Below are positions 7,718-22,263 of a stretch of DNA of 22,723 nt, in pieces. This DNA comes from a virus. Positions within the stretch are counted from its first letter, which is position 1; each line of letters begins with the position of its first letter. A program made the translations under genes and the position numbers. The stretch spans positions 1 to 22,723 of the IMG/VR virus record IMGVR_UViG_3300008110_000709. One strand, written 5' to 3'. Below the pieces are notes generated by a model that saw only the letters and a program-made list of their open reading frames with translations, was not told the DNA's origin and did no database searches.

Positions 7718-8026
7718 TTATTTAAGGCGCTGCAAGTAAAGCGCCTGTAGGGCGCATACGGTGTCGTCGGGGTCACGGGCTTCGTACCACTCGCCCCTTG
7801 GCTGGAATAGCCCCTGAAAGCGTTTCTGCCCCTCTGACAGCCGCCCGCCCTTGGCCTTGACCTCTATCCAGCAAATCCACGCCATACCGTCGTGCATTGG
7901 CTTGACGGCCAACAGGTCAGGGATGTCGTGCCCTGCCGAGGCGTAGTCGATGACCTCAAAGTTGGCCTTACGTAAGGCTTCTACGATGTCGGTGTGGTTG
8001 TTGTCTCGGCGTTTGGCGTAGCGCAT
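7718..8026 (-). CDS. VRR-NUC domain nuclease (PD-(D/E)xK fold)
   Basis: 102 aa, the usual size of stand-alone phage VRR-NUC proteins. Motifs in order: an N-terminal helix (HTDIVEALRKANFEVI), then IPDLLAV with D37, then IEVKAKGGRLSEGQKRF with E55 and K57 plus Q67. These are the metal-binding and catalytic positions of the PD-(D/E)xK superfamily. Family members act on branched or flapped DNA (Holliday-junction resolvase-like), which fits a phage with an annealing-recombination module in the next block. It lies 7 bp after an unknown gene. Confidence 0.8.
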   Translation of the reverse strand: MRYAKRRDNNHTDIVEALRKANFEVIDYASAGHDIPDLLAVKPMHDGMAWICWIEVKAKGGRLSEGQKRFQGLFQPRGEWYEARDPDDTVCALQALYLQRLK

Positions 8027-8033
8027 ACGCCGA

Positions 8034-8348
8034 TTATGCCGGTTTGCACCTAGCCTTCAACTTGGTCACACCCGGCTCGCCCCATAGTTCCCGCACCATG
8101 CCCCGAACGTGCGGGTCGCCGTATGCCTCAGTCGCATCGTCCAGCGAGCGCAGGATGTCACCCACGTAGTTCTTCAACCAAGATGTGCGTTCCGCACGCT
8201 GCGACCAATCCCCCACGCCGATCCGGGCAAGGTACGCATCGGCTAACCGCAGTTTGCCAAACGGCGTGTGCTTGACGCTTTCCCAATACCGCACGTTGGC
8301 CTGTGACGCCCACGATATGTCGGTGCTATTTGTGACTGGATTGTTCAT
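8034..8348 (-). CDS. Unknown phage protein
   Basis: 104 aa. Its ATG lies inside the end of the methyltransferase gene (23-bp overlap in another frame), so the two are coupled. It is mixed helical and basic at the C-terminus (GVTKLKARCKPA), with a tryptophan-rich middle (GDWSQRAERTSWLKNYVGDIL). No domain was recognised. Position between a methyltransferase and a nuclease suggests a DNA-related job, but that is only context. Confidence 0.55.
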   Translation of the reverse strand: MNNPVTNSTDISWASQANVRYWESVKHTPFGKLRLADAYLARIGVGDWSQRAERTSWLKNYVGDILRSLDDATEAYGDPHVRGMVRELWGEPGVTKLKARCKPA

Positions 8349-9171
8349 ATATCCACTTTCCTATCAGTTCTGGTATTTGCGGCACTACGGCGTTTCCGAG
8401 TGCTTTAAGTCTGTCCAACCGATTGGGAACCCCATTAGCCACTCGACCCACGCTGGGTTCAATCTCCCAGTTTCGCCCTGAAACTCCACCGCATCCGGTA
8501 ATGAGTTGGTTTGTGGATTGCGTCCAGACTTCTGCATCGTTTCGGGTTTCCTGGCTCCTTTGCCATCGCGTGCCGTTGGTGTCGGCCACATCCGCCGACC
8601 AACCACCGTTTCCAAGTTTGGAAACCGATTCTCCTTCCAAACTGATTCGGGAGTTATTGTCGCCGACATCGCGCTGCAACTGCGGGGGGCAGGCCACGAT
8701 CCAGATGCGGTCCCTCTGGTGAGGAGCGCCAACGGCTGAAGCGGGTATACAGTGCCATTCCGCGTCATACCCGATCTCAGCGAGGCTCCTGAGTACATCG
8801 TCCAGTCCTCGATGCCGAAGGGCCGCGACGTTTTCCGCGATGACCCAGGACGGCCTCGTTTCCGCGATGAGGCGGTGATATTCCCACCAGAGTCCTGATC
8901 GTTCACCGGCAAGTCCTGCGCCTTTCCCGGCGACGCTAATGTCTTGGCAAGGGAATCCGCCACAGATAACGTCGAACTGGATTCCATCGTTAACCAATCG
9001 AGTTGCTGATAGGTCACGTACATCCTCGTATATCGGCACATCCGGCCAGTGCTTGTGTAGCACGGCTTGGCAAAACTTATTCGGCTCGCAGAACGCTACC
9101 GTCTGCATACCGGCACGCTCAAGCCCAAGGCTAAAGCCGCCGATACCGCTGAACAAATCAAGCACCTTCAC
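8326..9171 (-). CDS. DNA (cytosine-5) methyltransferase
   Basis: 281 aa with a GTG start inside the 3' end of the regulator gene (14-bp overlap). It transfers a methyl group from SAM to cytosine C5. Motif I is DLFSGIGGFSLGLERAG (5-21), motif IV GGFPCQ with catalytic C75, motif VI ENV (113-115), motif VIII QRDRIWIVA (152-160) and motif X LKALGNAVVPQI (255-266). The target-recognition part (about 162-240) is short, hydrophilic and of low complexity. No cognate restriction enzyme was recognised, so it is probably an orphan enzyme protecting phage DNA or altering host-recognised sites. The region of motifs VIII-X also carries a second long frame (next entry). Confidence 0.93.
   Translation of the reverse strand: MKVLDLFSGIGGFSLGLERAGMQTVAFCEPNKFCQAVLHKHWPDVPIYEDVRDLSATRLVNDGIQFDVICGGFPCQDISVAGKGAGLAGERSGLWWEYHRLIAETRPSWVIAENVAALRHRGLDDVLRSLAEIGYDAEWHCIPASAVGAPHQRDRIWIVACPPQLQRDVGDNNSRISLEGESVSKLGNGGWSADVADTNGTRWQRSQETRNDAEVWTQSTNQLITGCGGVSGRNWEIEPSVGRVANGVPNRLDRLKALGNAVVPQIPELIGKWIYEQSSHK
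8385..8987 (-). CDS. Candidate overprinted gene inside the methyltransferase (+1 frame)
   Basis: A 200-aa frame (218 aa if the ATG at 9041 is used) lies entirely inside the methyltransferase, shifted +1 on the same strand. Counting from the longer form, it contains SGMTRNGTVY (90-99), RFPNLETVV (139-147), WPTPTARD (152-159) and LNPAWVEWLMGFPIGWT (194-210). I recognise these as recurring motifs of a phage protein family usually listed as hypothetical or methyltransferase-associated; that is from memory and was not searched. The N-terminal third does not look family-like. No strong ribosome site is visible at either start. It is either a true overlapping gene or a shadow that explains how the family arose. 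Confidence 0.4.
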   Translation of the reverse strand: MESSSTLSVADSLAKTLASPGKAQDLPVNDQDSGGNITASSRKRGRPGSSRKTSRPFGIEDWTMYSGASLRSGMTRNGTVYPLQPLALLTRGTASGSWPAPRSCSAMSATITPESVWKENRFPNLETVVGRRMWPTPTARDGKGARKPETMQKSGRNPQTNSLPDAVEFQGETGRLNPAWVEWLMGFPIGWTDLKHSETP

Positions 9172-9349
9172 GGACTTTCAGCACGCACTCAATCTGGTAA
9201 AGGCGCAGAGGCGGAATCTTGTCCTCTTTGAACCAGCGCAGCACAGCCTGCCGGGTTACGCCCAACGCCCGAGCAATCTCGCTCTGGGAGCCATAAATCT
9301 TCAGTAGTTGTTTCGGTGTCATAGGTTGCACAGTAACAGGTGTTGACAT
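9158..9349 (-). CDS. Cro/YdaS-like HTH transcriptional regulator
   Basis: 63 aa from the ATG at 9347-9349. The HTH is clear: LLKIYGSQSEIARALGVTRQAVLRWFKEDKIPP, the layout of Cro/YdaS repressors. A longer frame exists upstream (from 9478), but it would run through the divergent promoter and first rightward gene, so it was rejected. A second in-frame ATG at 9322 just before the HTH is also possible. The chosen start codon lies inside an inverted repeat (9342-9359), so the protein probably represses its own transcription. It is first in the leftward block with the methyltransferase. Confidence 0.82.
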   Translation of the reverse strand: MSTPVTVQPMTPKQLLKIYGSQSEIARALGVTRQAVLRWFKEDKIPPLRLYQIECVLKVREGA

Positions 9350-9359
9350 GATCGTCAAC
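9342..9359. promoter_or_regulatory. Palindromic operator candidate
   Basis: Perfect inverted repeat GTTGAC-ATGATC-GTCAAC. It overlaps the -35 box of the rightward promoter and the start codon of the Cro-like regulator. Operator function for that regulator is inferred from position and symmetry. Confidence 0.6.
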
Positions 9360-9370
9360 GGGAGTATACT
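9343..9370 (+). promoter_or_regulatory. Sigma70-type promoter for the recombination block
   Basis: TTGACA at 9343-9348, a 16-bp spacer and TATACT at 9365-9370, about 34 bp upstream of the first rightward start at 9404. The -35 box is one arm of the operator palindrome, so occupancy by the regulator should block it. Confidence 0.7.
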
Positions 9371-9403
9371 GCGCTTCGGGGATTGGCCCCGATGGAGAAA
9401 GCA

Positions 9404-9616
9404 ATGGAAGACGATTACCGCATCTTGGCCGAGCAGGAACGTGACCGACTCATGGAGTTGCACTGCCGCGCCGAACACGCCGCCTTCAACGTCATCGAAG
9501 GCTTAAACGAACTCAACCGCATCGAAGCCGAAGGCGCTTTCAAACTGCACCAAGCGTTTGCCGAGTGCATTGCTGCGATTGACGCCGCATCCGCCAAACT
9601 GAGGAACCCGCAATGA
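9404..9616 (+). CDS. Small helical phage protein, unknown
   Basis: 70 aa. The ATG at 9404 was chosen over TTG/ATG codons at 9383 and 9392 because GGAG lies 7 bases upstream. The protein is almost entirely charged amphipathic helix (ILAEQERDRLMELHCRAEH..., then LNRIEAEGAFKLHQAF), suggesting a coiled coil or small bundle. It is first in the rightward block and its stop overlaps the ERF start (ATGA). It may be an accessory of the annealing protein, but only by position. Confidence 0.6.
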   Translation: MEDDYRILAEQERDRLMELHCRAEHAAFNVIEGLNELNRIEAEGAFKLHQAFAECIAAIDAASAKLRNPQ

Positions 9617-10188
9617 AGGTCTACGAGAAGATTGCCGCTGTCACCGCTGAACTATCCAAGATCGGCATCAGCAAAGACAGCAAGAACCAATCGCAGGGCT
9701 ACGCTTTCCGTGGCATCGACGCTGTGTACGGTGCGCTCTCGCCGCTGCTGTCAAAGCACGGCCTTTGCATCCTGCCTCGCGTTACCGACCGACAGGTTAT
9801 CGAGCGCCAGAACCGCCAAGGCACTGCGCTGTTCTACGTCACGCTGACCGTGGAGTTTGACTTTGTGGCCGCCGAAGACGGCAGCAAGCACACGGTCATT
9901 ACCGTAGGCGAGGCGATGGACTCAGGCGACAAAGCCAGCAACAAGGCCATGTCTGCCGCCTACAAGTACGCCGCCTTCCAAGCGTTCTGTATCCCGACCG
10001 AGGGCGACAACGACGCTGACTCGCAGACGCATGAAGTCGCCGCAGACACTACCGATCCTGCGGTTGAAGCGGCAGTACAACTAGCAGCCACTATCGAGGA
10101 GTTAAACGGAATATGGAAAAGCCTAAACGCAAACGAGCGAAAGGCGCATCTGAGCCTGTTCAGCGAAAAGAAAAGCAAGTTGGCCTAA
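9613..10188 (+). CDS. erf: ERF-family single-strand annealing protein
   Basis: 191 aa. The ERF core is visible at about 5-140: YEKIAAVTAELSKIGI, then QGYAFRGIDAVYGALSPLLSKHGL, then a beta-rich part ending in GDKASNKAMSAAYKYAAFQAF and IPTEGDNDAD. P22 Erf and relatives anneal complementary single strands during phage recombination and genome circularisation. The C-terminal 50 residues form a separate helical tail (IEELNGIWKSLNANERKAHL). It is paired with a YqaJ exonuclease downstream, the usual partner. The 3' end overlaps the next gene by 76 bp if that gene's upstream start is used. Confidence 0.9.
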   Translation: MKVYEKIAAVTAELSKIGISKDSKNQSQGYAFRGIDAVYGALSPLLSKHGLCILPRVTDRQVIERQNRQGTALFYVTLTVEFDFVAAEDGSKHTVITVGEAMDSGDKASNKAMSAAYKYAAFQAFCIPTEGDNDADSQTHEVAADTTDPAVEAAVQLAATIEELNGIWKSLNANERKAHLSLFSEKKSKLA

Positions 10189-10424: not shown

Positions 10425-10696
10425 CTTATCACACCATTAGACGCCAGAGCGATGTAGATCGGCCATCAACAGATGACTCAGGCTACCGCCGACTGTGGTC
10501 TGCCGTGCTGTGGCAGGCGATTAAAGACGCAGACAACGCCGATGGCCGAGGCGCTGCGTTTCACTGGATTTTTTCCCGTCGTGATGACGCCGGGTCGATG
10601 CGCTGGATATGCGACATGCTCGACTTTGACTACAACAAGTTGCAGTCGTTGTGTATGACCCGTGATGGCCGTAAAAAAATCTTAGGGAGAGTGTGA
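10421..10696 (+). CDS. Unknown phage protein
   Basis: 91 aa from the ATG at 10421, chosen for its ATGA overlap with the preceding gene; the same frame can be extended to 10400. Visible features are a Trp-rich helical core (YRRLWSAVLWQAIKDA, then HWIFSRRDDAGSMRWICDMLDFDY) and a basic end (RDGRKKILGRV). This gene type is common in phage recombination blocks, but I know no function. Its stop overlaps the exonuclease start by one base. Confidence 0.6.
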   Translation: MTYHTIRRQSDVDRPSTDDSGYRRLWSAVLWQAIKDADNADGRGAAFHWIFSRRDDAGSMRWICDMLDFDYNKLQSLCMTRDGRKKILGRV

Positions 10697-11307
10697 TGGA
10701 GCAGCGAACAACAGAATGGCACACCGCCCGTCTGGGCAAGGTGACTGCCTCTAAGGTGTCTGACGTAGTGGCACGCACGAAGAGCGGTTATGCCGCTACT
10801 CGCGCAAACTACATGGCGCAGTTGGTATGCGAACGCTTAACCGGCAAGCCAACGGAAGGTTTTTCTACAGCAGCGATGGAGTGGGGCGTGGAGCAGGAAG
10901 CCGCAGCGCGTGACGCTTATAGCGCCAAGGTGGGCGAACTGGTCACCGAGGTAGGCTTTATCAACCATCCTGCAATCGAGATGGCAGGTGCCAGCCCCGA
11001 TGGGCTAGTCGGCGTGAATGGCTGCGTCGAGATCAAGTGTCCGTCCACGGCTACGCACATCGAATATCTTTTTGAGCGTGAGCCGCCACAAAAATATTTT
11101 TACCAAATGCAATGGCAAATGGCTTGCACGGGTACGGACTGGTGCGATTGGGTTTCATACGATCCGAGGATGCCCGAGGAGTTACAACTGCTGGTGCTGC
11201 GTATCCCTCGGGATACAGACTGCATCACCCTCTTAGAGAAAGAGGTATTTGATTTTTTGGCTGAGTTGGATGCTAAAGTTTCTAAACTGAAGGAGATGAC
11301 CCTGTGA
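10696..11307 (+). CDS. YqaJ/lambda-exonuclease family viral recombinase
   Basis: 203 aa from the ATG at 10696 (GGGAGA just upstream; a GTG one codon earlier is possible). It is a 5'-3' exonuclease of the PD-(D/E)xK superfamily that resects double-strand ends for the ERF annealing protein. Motifs: TTEWHTARLGKVTASK (5-20), the ME-G-x2-QE helix (61-68), ASPDG with D102, VEIKCP with E112 and K114, and FYQMQWQMACTG (135-146). The length is normal for phage members. The start overlaps the previous stop by one base and the stop overlaps the next GTG by four. Confidence 0.9.
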   Translation: MEQRTTEWHTARLGKVTASKVSDVVARTKSGYAATRANYMAQLVCERLTGKPTEGFSTAAMEWGVEQEAAARDAYSAKVGELVTEVGFINHPAIEMAGASPDGLVGVNGCVEIKCPSTATHIEYLFEREPPQKYFYQMQWQMACTGTDWCDWVSYDPRMPEELQLLVLRIPRDTDCITLLEKEVFDFLAELDAKVSKLKEMTL

Positions 11308-19943: not shown

Positions 19944-20080
19944 TGCCTTTAGTAAGGTCTGCGTCTAAGGGCGCCTTCCGCAAGAACATCCGCGCTGAAG
20001 TGAGGGCAGGCACGCCGGTAAAGCAAGCCGTTGCCATTGCGTATTCCGTTAAGCGCAAAGCCAGTAAGAAGGGCAAGTAA
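19943..20080 (+). CDS. Tiny basic protein (DUF6496-like)
   Basis: 45 aa, below usual length filters. MPLVRSASKGAFRKNIRAEV, then AGTPVKQAVAIAYSVKRKA and a Lys-rich tail. This KQAVAIAY-S-KR layout is a familiar uncharacterised phage domain (DUF6496). TAATG overlaps on both sides place it firmly between its neighbour and the portal. Confidence 0.75.
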   Translation: MPLVRSASKGAFRKNIRAEVRAGTPVKQAVAIAYSVKRKASKKGK

Positions 20081-22263
20081 TGGCTAAAGACCCGACAGGG
20101 ATGAAGGGCGCGGCTCAGGTGGCTAATACGCCCGAGAGCCGCCGTGCGCGTAGTACGGGCGATATCCTCGCCCAAGCGCGTACCCGAATGCAGTTGTCCC
20201 TGACGGCTTATAGCGAGTCTCGGGACAGCGAACTGGACGACTTGCGCTTTATGGCAGGTTCCCCAGATAACCGCTGGCAGTGGCCGCAAGAAGTCTTAGC
20301 CACCCGTGGCGCAGTGCAAGGTCAGACGATTAACGCTCGTCCCTGCCTGACCATCAACAAACTGCCTCAACACGTTCGGCAGGTCACTAACGACCAGCGC
20401 CAGAACCGCCCTGCGGGCAAGGTCATCCCGGTCGATGACAAGGCGGACATTGAAGTCGCTGAGGTGTTTGACGGTATCGTCCGGCACATCGAGTACATCT
20501 CGGATGCCGACGTTGCCTACGACACTGCTTGTGAGAATCAGGTCACGTATGGCGAAGGCTATATCCGCATTCTGACCGAGTATTGCGATCCCGATTCGTT
20601 TGACCAAGACATCCGTATTGCTCGCGTTCGTAACTCGTTCTCGGTATATATGGACCCGCACATCCAAGACCCGTGCGGAGCCGATGCAGAATGGTGTTTC
20701 ATAACCGAGGACATGCCCCGTGAGGAGTTTGAGCGTCATTTTCCTGACGCCGAACCCATCTCGTCGATCCAGAGCCGTGGTATTGGTGACGAGAATCTGG
20801 CGCAGTGGATTACCGACGATTCAGTACGGATTGCGGAATACTTCTACGCTTACTATGAAAAAGCGAAATTAAACCTGTATCCGGGCGGTATGACCGCCTA
20901 CGCCGACTCGCCCGAAGCCGCGCAGATGGAGGCCATGGGCCTCGCCCCTGTTCGCACCCGTGACGTAGACATCCGCAAGATCAAGTGGATGAAGACGAAC
21001 GGCTACGAGGTGCTAGAAGAGCAGGAGTGGCCGGGTAAGTCGATTCCGGTTGTCCGCGTGGTCGGCAACGAGTACGAGGTTGAAGGCCGTATCTACATCA
21101 GCGGCCTCGTGCGTAACGCTAAAGACGCGCAGCGCATGTACAACTACTGGGTATCCCAAGAGGCAGAAATGCTCGCCTTGGCCCCCAAAGCGCCGTTTAT
21201 CGGCTATGGCGGGCAGTTTGAGGGATACGAGCATCAGTGGAAGACCGCCAATACCCAGAACTGGCCGTATTTGGAGGTCAATCCTGACGTTACGGACGGC
21301 GCTGGCAACATGCTGCCGCTGCCCCAACGTGCCGCCCCACCCCTTGCACAAACGGGCCTTATTCAGGCTAAGATGGGCGCGTCGGACGACATTAAGTCTA
21401 CGACGGGCTACTATGACTCCAGCCTTGGCGCCACGTCTAACGAGCGCTCGGGTCGAGCCATATTGGCGCGTGAACGTCAGGGCGATACGGGGTCATATCA
21501 TTACGTCGATAACCTTGCCCGCGCTATCCGCTACGTCACTCGCCAACTCGTTGACTTGATTCCGAAGATTTACGATACCCAGCGTATCGCTCGCATCATC
21601 GGCATCGATGGGGAAACCTCGACGGTGCGTATTGACCCGATGCAGCAAGAGCCTGTCCGCAAGTTGGTGGATCAGGCTGGCGTTGTTATTGAGAAAATCT
21701 ACAACCCGTCCGTTGGTAAGTACGACGTAGCCGTCACGACTGGCCCGTCCTACATGACCAAGCGCCAAGAGGCGATGGACGCGATGTCGCAAATCCTGCA
21801 AGCCAACCCGAACCTCTGGGGCGTGGCAGGCGACCTGTTCGTCAAGAACATGGATTGGCCGGGAGCGCAGGAGATTGCCAAGCGTCTTTCCAAAACAATT
21901 GATCCGAAACTGCTTGCTGATCCTGACGAAGACCCAGCGTTGCAGGCTGCTAACCAGCAGATTGAGGCGATGGGCGCTGAGATGGATCAGATGTTCCAAA
22001 TGCTCCGAAATGTCTCGCAGTCCATGGAAGCCACGGAACTGCGGATTAAGGAGCAGGAGGCGCAGATTAAGGCGTATGACGCCGAAACTAAGCGTATCAG
22101 CGCGGTTCAGGCGGGTATGTCCGAAGAGCAAATCCAAGACATCGTGATGGGCACGATTAGCGGGATGCTGTCCTCTAATGACCTTGTAGCCCCGGCCCCT
22201 AGAGAGGCTGAAATGCCGATGGAAATGCCACCGCAAATGCCGATGGAGTTACCGCCGCAATGA
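20080..22263 (+). CDS. Portal protein, P22 type
   Basis: 727 aa, the size of P22 gp1-like portals. It forms the dodecameric ring at the capsid vertex through which terminase pumps DNA. Conserved pieces: SELDDLRFMAGSPDNRWQW (60-78), ARPCLTINKLPQHVRQVTND and RQNRPAGKVIPVDD (96-131), then TYGEGYIRI and SFSVYMDPHIQDPCGADAEW (about 165-210). The C-terminal third is a helical barrel with acidic coiled coil and a Met/Pro-rich tail (EMPMEMPPQMPMELPPQ). The stop overlaps the next start by four bases. Confidence 0.93.
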   Translation: MAKDPTGMKGAAQVANTPESRRARSTGDILAQARTRMQLSLTAYSESRDSELDDLRFMAGSPDNRWQWPQEVLATRGAVQGQTINARPCLTINKLPQHVRQVTNDQRQNRPAGKVIPVDDKADIEVAEVFDGIVRHIEYISDADVAYDTACENQVTYGEGYIRILTEYCDPDSFDQDIRIARVRNSFSVYMDPHIQDPCGADAEWCFITEDMPREEFERHFPDAEPISSIQSRGIGDENLAQWITDDSVRIAEYFYAYYEKAKLNLYPGGMTAYADSPEAAQMEAMGLAPVRTRDVDIRKIKWMKTNGYEVLEEQEWPGKSIPVVRVVGNEYEVEGRIYISGLVRNAKDAQRMYNYWVSQEAEMLALAPKAPFIGYGGQFEGYEHQWKTANTQNWPYLEVNPDVTDGAGNMLPLPQRAAPPLAQTGLIQAKMGASDDIKSTTGYYDSSLGATSNERSGRAILARERQGDTGSYHYVDNLARAIRYVTRQLVDLIPKIYDTQRIARIIGIDGETSTVRIDPMQQEPVRKLVDQAGVVIEKIYNPSVGKYDVAVTTGPSYMTKRQEAMDAMSQILQANPNLWGVAGDLFVKNMDWPGAQEIAKRLSKTIDPKLLADPDEDPALQAANQQIEAMGAEMDQMFQMLRNVSQSMEATELRIKEQEAQIKAYDAETKRISAVQAGMSEEQIQDIVMGTISGMLSSNDLVAPAPREAEMPMEMPPQMPMELPPQ

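Follow-up and report, generated by a model that had tools for sequence, protein, structure and literature searches.

The query locus very probably encodes a two-subunit cytosine-C5 (m5C) methyltransferase whose subunits, alpha and beta, are read from interleaved frames of the same DNA. The locus lies in the window, a 22,723-nucleotide stretch (positions 1 to 22,723) of virus record IMGVR_UViG_3300008110_000709 (Table 1). Frame 1 would give alpha, in which a long unstructured linker connects the AdoMet and catalytic motifs I-VIII to motif X. The +1 frame would give beta, made up of an N-terminal region, between one and five exchangeable modules for target recognition, and motif IX. Alpha would have no recognition domain of its own and would be provided with one by beta. 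The two polypeptides would assemble, and the alpha-beta heterodimer would methylate the sequences specified by the beta modules. Its role appears to be protection, which in the simplest case would mean that phage DNA is shielded from host restriction.

Alpha and beta at the query locus

Table 1. Features of the query locus and its neighbourhood, in positions of the window.
Feature	Position	Strand	Basis
Alpha ORF, cytosine-C5 methyltransferase	8326..9171	-	281 aa, GTG start
Alpha catalytic domain, residues 1-165, motifs I-VIII	8677..9171	-	AlphaFold, M.HhaI match
Alpha linker, residues 166-240, contains VADTNG, overlies beta modules	8452..8676	-	disorder predicted
Alpha residues 241-281: VGRVANGVPNRLDRLK and motif X (LGNAVVPQ) helices	8329..8451	-	pLDDT, invariant residues
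Beta ORF, 218 codons from first ATG, +1 relative to alpha	8385..9041	-	stop-free, selected, PHROG_1008
Beta N-terminal conserved region (S.AKTSA ... KTSQ.F ... RSGMMRNGxVY)	8697..8987	-	alignment A1; synonymous constraint 1.2-1.8x
Beta putative recognition module 1 (WPAPRSCSAMSATITPESVWKENRFPNLETVVGRRM)	8589..8696	-	recurs in other slots: L151, L155, L090
Beta putative recognition module 2 (WPTPTARDGKGARKPETMQKSGRNPQTNSLPDAVEFQGETGR)	8463..8588	-	recurs in L017, L033, L163, others
Beta putative motif IX (GRLNPAWVEWLMGFPIGWTDL)	8406..8468	-	A1 profile, hhalign, synonymous constraint 3.3x at alpha codons 241-250
Candidate beta start signal: GAGG 9027-9024, 6-nt spacer, GTG 9017-9015	9015..9027	-	conservation in five close sequences
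Rival beta start ATG	8987-8985	-	conserved in five close sequences
Neighbour, VRR-NUC nuclease	7718-8026	-	
Neighbour, P22 Cro/YdaS-like regulator	9158-9478	-	overlaps methyltransferase start
Neighbour, ERF recombinase	9613-10188		
Neighbour, YqaJ exonuclease	10693-11307		
P22-like portal	20080-22263		

In profile searches, alpha matched PF00145 (5.6e-48), TIGR00675 and PHROG_363 (5.1e-84). It carried motifs I-VIII and X, with the PF00145 motifs I, IV, VI, VIII and X all present, and motif IX was absent in frame; a recognition domain and motif IX were not found in this chain, motif IX being located in beta. The AlphaFold model of alpha showed a confident large domain at residues 1-160 (pLDDT 88-98), no secondary structure at residues 177-232 (pLDDT below 50) and motif X helices at residues 251-280 (pLDDT 77-95), and the small domain was absent from the model. 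The best solved-structure match to this model was M.HhaI (Z 25.8, 209 residues aligned, 3.1 A). The G.PCQ, EN, H.R.R and GN positions were invariant in the alpha alignment A3, as were G259 and N260. The overlapping methyltransferases aligned to PF00145 only up to approximately position 165-230 of 324.

The sequence-only reading had placed a 218-codon open frame inside the methyltransferase, +1 to it and on the same (minus) strand. This frame was confirmed from ATG to stop, and all of the motifs quoted from it were present. The accompanying suggestion that its product resembles a protein family of many phages was borne out by matches to PHROG_1008 (1.1e-21), PHROG 26627 (1.5e-10) and PHROG 27243. 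Profile searches gave no Pfam or NCBIfam match for beta, HNH included, and profile searches of the PDB with the beta alignment or the beta C-terminus returned no methyltransferase match. The conserved N-terminal region of beta overlaps alpha motifs IV-VIII. Modelled alone, beta gave a poor AlphaFold model (pLDDT 61). This and the PDB result count against the two-subunit reading, although an obligate subunit might model poorly, which is no evidence in itself.

The position of the beta start at the query locus is uncertain, which counts against the two-subunit reading. A start at ATG 9041 was doubted because this codon is lost in the close relative L084, which also lacks the next ATG at 9023, and because both GAGG-N6-GTG (GTG 9017) and ATG 8987 were kept in 5/5 close sequences compared. 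Judged by this conservation, ATG 9041 is probably not the true start; the extent first given for beta thus held as an open frame that is real and selected, and probably failed at its first codon. Of 74 relatives considered for an internal start like that of the query locus, 57 had an open ATG at alpha codons 40-72 and 17 lacked one, the latter also counting against this reading. In a second architecture, beta has its start 4 nt downstream from that of alpha (GTGAATGAGTTGGCT) and opens with MSWLFSQALV. This arrangement was present at 26 loci, in Pseudomonas, Acinetobacter, Halomonas and E. coli and in Klebsiella phage BUCT711, with an SD-like sequence upstream in 24 of them. A search of E. coli for a system like M.EcoHK31I showed only a few chromosomal, prophage-like copies, and in L240, the one that was read, both frames were broken.

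Putative recognition modules, motif IX and relatives outside the overlap

Beta comprises a conserved N-terminal part, one to five modules of approximately 28-45 aa starting (W)PTPxA, and then LNPxWVEWLMGFPxGW, the putative motif IX. The same module types recur across hosts, slots and combinations. The TAQDxKNSTLPPSQ... module was the last of three both in L190 (Brevibacillus) and, as TSQDSKNSTLPPSQ, in L164 (Pseudodesulfovibrio), but the first of three in L231 (Paenibacillus). We infer that the beta modules set target specificity.

The assignment of motif IX to beta is putative; its basis in short motifs together with the in-frame relatives counts against the two-subunit reading. Several canonical methyltransferases of overlap-carrying genomes had an in-frame motif IX that was RRLTPRECARLMGFP or near it, whereas the overlapping methyltransferases had none in frame and showed GxLNPxWVEWLMGFP in the +1 frame instead. 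The A1 profile, built from the overlapping proteins, scored 17.2 bits against the in-frame motif IX of a canonical phage methyltransferase, Rctr41k_14 (RRLTPTECERLQGFPDGWTDG), more than any shuffled or reversed decoy, and hhalign also selected motif IX (E 0.019, low probability). When the beta C-terminal profile was run on canonical enzymes, its best places were mostly motif IX, with scores at decoy level, a poorer result than that of the full A1 profile. Joining alpha 1-160 to the beta modules and motif X in a chimeric probe left the PF00145 coverage no higher; against M.HhaI, this probe aligned motifs IX and X with sensible spacing at only 2.4 bits.

A tblastn probe in which motif X was placed after the alternate motif IX returned phages with both in one frame. 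In the Mycobacterium prophage prophiFVLQ01-1, gp6 is a single 452-aa chain of motifs I-VIII, PTP modules, LNPRFAEWMMGWP and motif X, and it matched both PHROG_363, the alpha family (4.8e-70), and PHROG_1008, the beta family (3.4e-49). Streptomyces phage Heather (gp35/gp36) and Arthrobacter phage Colucci (gp82/gp83) each have a catalytic gene and a separate gene for modules, IX and X. In the actinophage relatives, the frame where a methyltransferase would lie showed no unusual openness and no trace of a methyltransferase or motif X. Colucci gp83 (L318:718-1983), annotated as a hypothetical protein, has about seven PTP modules with motifs IX and X. In another single-chain relative, Propionibacterium phage B22 gp50 (L317:1-1986), an intein-like insertion splits the catalytic PCQ motif.

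Because these in-frame actinophage relatives have no overlapping methyltransferase, the beta family is best taken as the target-recognition half of a methyltransferase and not as its by-product. The sequence-only reading had proposed that the WPTPT/LNPxWVEWLMG family arose by overprinting of the methyltransferase recognition region. That proposal did not survive, since the family itself appears to be the recognition array with motif IX and the shifted frame of the actinophage relatives carries no methyltransferase trace. An independent or de novo overprinted beta family was also rejected, as in-frame and split relatives exist outside the overlap. Overprinting is better ascribed to the methyltransferase-frame linker than to beta. 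That the enzyme occurs in single-chain, split and overlapping forms suggests that the overlap originated by frame separation of an ancestral single chain.

The same single chain bears on a programmed frameshift, by which ribosomes started on alpha would enter the +1 frame and make a fusion of the alpha N-terminus, the recognition array and motif IX beside full alpha. The two frames do correspond to the two halves of prophiFVLQ01-1 gp6. However, selection on the beta frame is strong from alpha codon ~61, approximately 100 codons ahead of the modules, and this upstream part is a conserved protein. In addition, beta of the second architecture starts just past the alpha start, mostly under one SD-like sequence, and the fusion product would have no motif X. 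We therefore consider a frameshift unlikely, and infer that beta is made via its own initiation.

That beta is not a subunit but a separate accessory protein, such as a regulator or an anti-restriction factor, whose gene was overprinted on that of the methyltransferase is very improbable. The failure of beta to match Pfam or NCBIfam and the retention of PF00145 by alpha would suit such a protein, but alpha is without a recognition domain and motif IX, actinophages fuse beta parts in frame to alpha-type parts, and the beta modules shuffle like recognition domains. These points favour beta as a subunit of the two-subunit methyltransferase.

Selection on both frames and distribution of the overlap

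Each alternate codon is made up of methyltransferase positions 2 and 3 and the next position 1, so the methyltransferase wobble falls at alternate position 2, which makes it easy to test both frames for conservation. Loci found with the alternate protein were pooled with loci found from the methyltransferase alone, giving 124 distinct genes, 123 of them shufflable. In the shuffling, synonymous codons were permuted while each protein and its exact codon usage were kept. The non-redundant set held 74 relatives with methyltransferases less than 70% identical.

At the query locus, the +1 open run was 236 codons compared with 78 expected after synonymous shuffling, and 0/300 shuffles reached it. 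The mean longest +1 open run of the 123 relatives was 231 codons observed and 102 shuffled (p < 0.05 in 96%), while the other same-strand frame (+2) of these relatives showed no excess openness (56.8 vs 59.1 shuffled). Alternate-frame stops in the 74 relatives numbered 221 at methyltransferase codons 1-60, 18 at codons 61-120, 0 at codons 121-240 and 168 after codon 250. Stops scattered through the alternate frame of relatives, which would have spoken against a second protein, were thus absent from codons 121-240 in 74/74. Codon identity at conserved residues relative to shuffled was 0.99-1.05 at codons 1-50 and 1.13 at codons 51-60. It was 1.15-1.76 at codons 61-160 and reached its maximum of 3.34 at codons 241-250, inside the overlap, and went back to 1.08 and 0.97 after codon 260. 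The test of synonymous variation that had been proposed thus found codon constraint inside the overlap only. Canonical cytosine methyltransferases from overlap-carrying genomes had no open +1 frame (18/18), whereas the overlapping methyltransferases from those genomes were open in 6/6 (five with p < 0.05, one with 0.053). When the shifted frames of relatives were checked, the best 80 viral loci all lay on a methyltransferase in the same relative frame.

Over the modules, the balance between the frames was different. In close pairs, the share of changes that fell at methyltransferase third positions was 67% outside the overlap, against 49% at codons 101-160 and 17% at codons 161-240; in this last bin, which held only 23 pairs, the methyltransferase first position (the alternate third) accounted for 61%. 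Module pairs picked by nucleotide identity alone, 60 of them in different slots, had amino acid identities of 71%, 34% and 35% in the alternate, methyltransferase and third frames, respectively, with nucleotide identities of 0.73, 0.79 and 0.44 at alternate codon positions 1, 2 and 3. Because both the module-pair identities and the substitution spectrum favour the alternate frame, this frame is the protein over the modules, and the computations show it to be the main coding frame both there and over motif IX. In the methyltransferase frame, no amino acid constraint was detectable across the modules, yet this frame is kept open: alpha-frame stops over beta numbered 0 in 71/71 genes, against 3.0 expected per gene when the alternate codons were shuffled. 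Over this stretch, alpha would need only to remain open, letting ribosomes reach motif X.

Both frames are under selection, and the earlier surmise of two functional frames at one locus was correct. So was the idea that the second frame shapes the low-complexity VADT region, given the module-pair identities above. An alternate frame arising as a by-product of methyltransferase conservation and codon bias, or by chance, is ruled out for practical purposes: GC-rich genes often have open same-strand +1 frames, but shuffles that keep protein and codon usage fail to reproduce the openness, the overlap ends sharply, the canonical controls are negative and amino acid identity over the modules is twice as high in the alternate frame as in the methyltransferase frame.

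The overlap was confirmed in at least 598 relatives. By record titles, many of them of metagenome bins with rough labels, it was present in contigs of genomes labelled Pseudomonadota, Bacillota, Bacteroidota, Actinomycetota and Chlorobiota, and, with labels equally rough, in contigs labelled Myxococcales, Verrucomicrobiales, Lentisphaeria, Gemmatimonadales, Nitrospiria and others. It was also present in cultured phages of Mycobacterium, Paenibacillus, Microcystis, Synechococcus, Lacticaseibacillus, Acinetobacter, Vibrio and Stenotrophomonas. L276 and L277 belong to another methyltransferase clade (motif X PLAHGxPSRVGRLRAYGNAI) and have the same +1 overlap with LNPAHSRWLMGLPPEWDAC, so the overlap layout spans several methyltransferase clades. 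One Roseovarius MAG carried five near-identical overlapping loci (L177-L181) in one chromosome. L204, L207 and L228 each had a single in-frame alpha stop near or after motif VIII with the beta frame intact, which could be decay or an incipient split like that of M.AquI.

For phage and prophage m5C methyltransferases of many phyla, we regard it as reasonably probable that shuffling modules and motif IX are double-coded in the catalytic gene and that alpha is a disordered tether to motif X, the whole probably being a frame-separated single chain with a newly overprinted alpha linker.

Relation to known methyltransferases and meaning

In M.EcoHK31I (YGGCCR), an alternative reading frame within the large-subunit gene codes for the small subunit, and beta is likewise encoded inside alpha in another frame at the query locus and in its relatives. 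M.EcoHK31I was reported as a two-polypeptide m5C methyltransferase by Lee, Kam and Shaw in 1995, as summarised in PMC3404938. In the published description of this two-polypeptide enzyme, the large subunit has motifs I-VIII and X and the small polypeptide has motif IX (PMC3404938); compared by that description, alpha (I-VIII and X) and beta (IX) show the same layout at the query locus. M.EcoHK31I has also been described as naturally split (PMC3439449). The review assigns the predicted M.EcoHK31I recognition domain to the large subunit (PMC3404938), which counts against the two-subunit reading here. In contrast, the recognition array of the present family is in beta, and the corresponding alpha stretch is unconstrained. 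By this comparison, the family is best read as a variant of the EcoHK31I kind that would join a tandem recognition array with a second polypeptide in an overlapping frame.

Tandem interchangeable recognition modules are shared with the Bacillus phage enzymes SPR, phi3T and H2, which offer a functional parallel to the array; here, there are 1-5 modules per protein, recurring across loci and slots. In phi3T, as in the other multispecific phage m5C methyltransferases, tandem recognition domains give one enzyme several specificities. These enzymes are single chains read in one frame, whereas the present array belongs to a second polypeptide encoded in the +1 frame. SPR and H2 are cited as multispecific phage m5C methyltransferases in PMC8936443. 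M.AquI similarly has its catalytic and recognition/IX parts on separate polypeptides, and Heather gp35/36 and Colucci gp82/83 resemble it. However, motif X of M.AquI is with IX on the small subunit (PMC3404938), while the present system keeps X on alpha and reads its two overlapping genes in different frames. ShiLan also has an out-of-frame ORF hidden in a phage methylase gene, with the in-frame reading predicted as a loop, but that ORF is an HNH homing insertion of patchy presence (PMC11855218), whereas beta gave no match to HNH and occurs in all of the family.

Paenibacillus phage Shelly gp56, already annotated as 'g55 internal gene', matched PHROG_1008 at 8.2e-74 and is of the same beta family, annotated inside a methyltransferase gene. 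PHROG_1008 and Shelly gp56 differ from the account given here in being labelled hypothetical protein or DNA methyltransferase, with no recognition role given. In the open-access literature searched, we found no recognition array in an overlapping frame.

What is new is best read as beta being a shuffling recognition array, widespread and mostly unannotated. The locus is a well-supported long same-strand overlap in a phage, with controls, and it points to a route of origin other than de novo overprinting, in which one enzyme is split between two frames. Because annotation mostly reports one frame, records of many phage methyltransferases omit the recognition half or list it as hypothetical, and specificity is not predictable from the annotated chain. 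With modules being exchanged in the hidden frame, simple module swaps offer a way to test how phages evade restriction.
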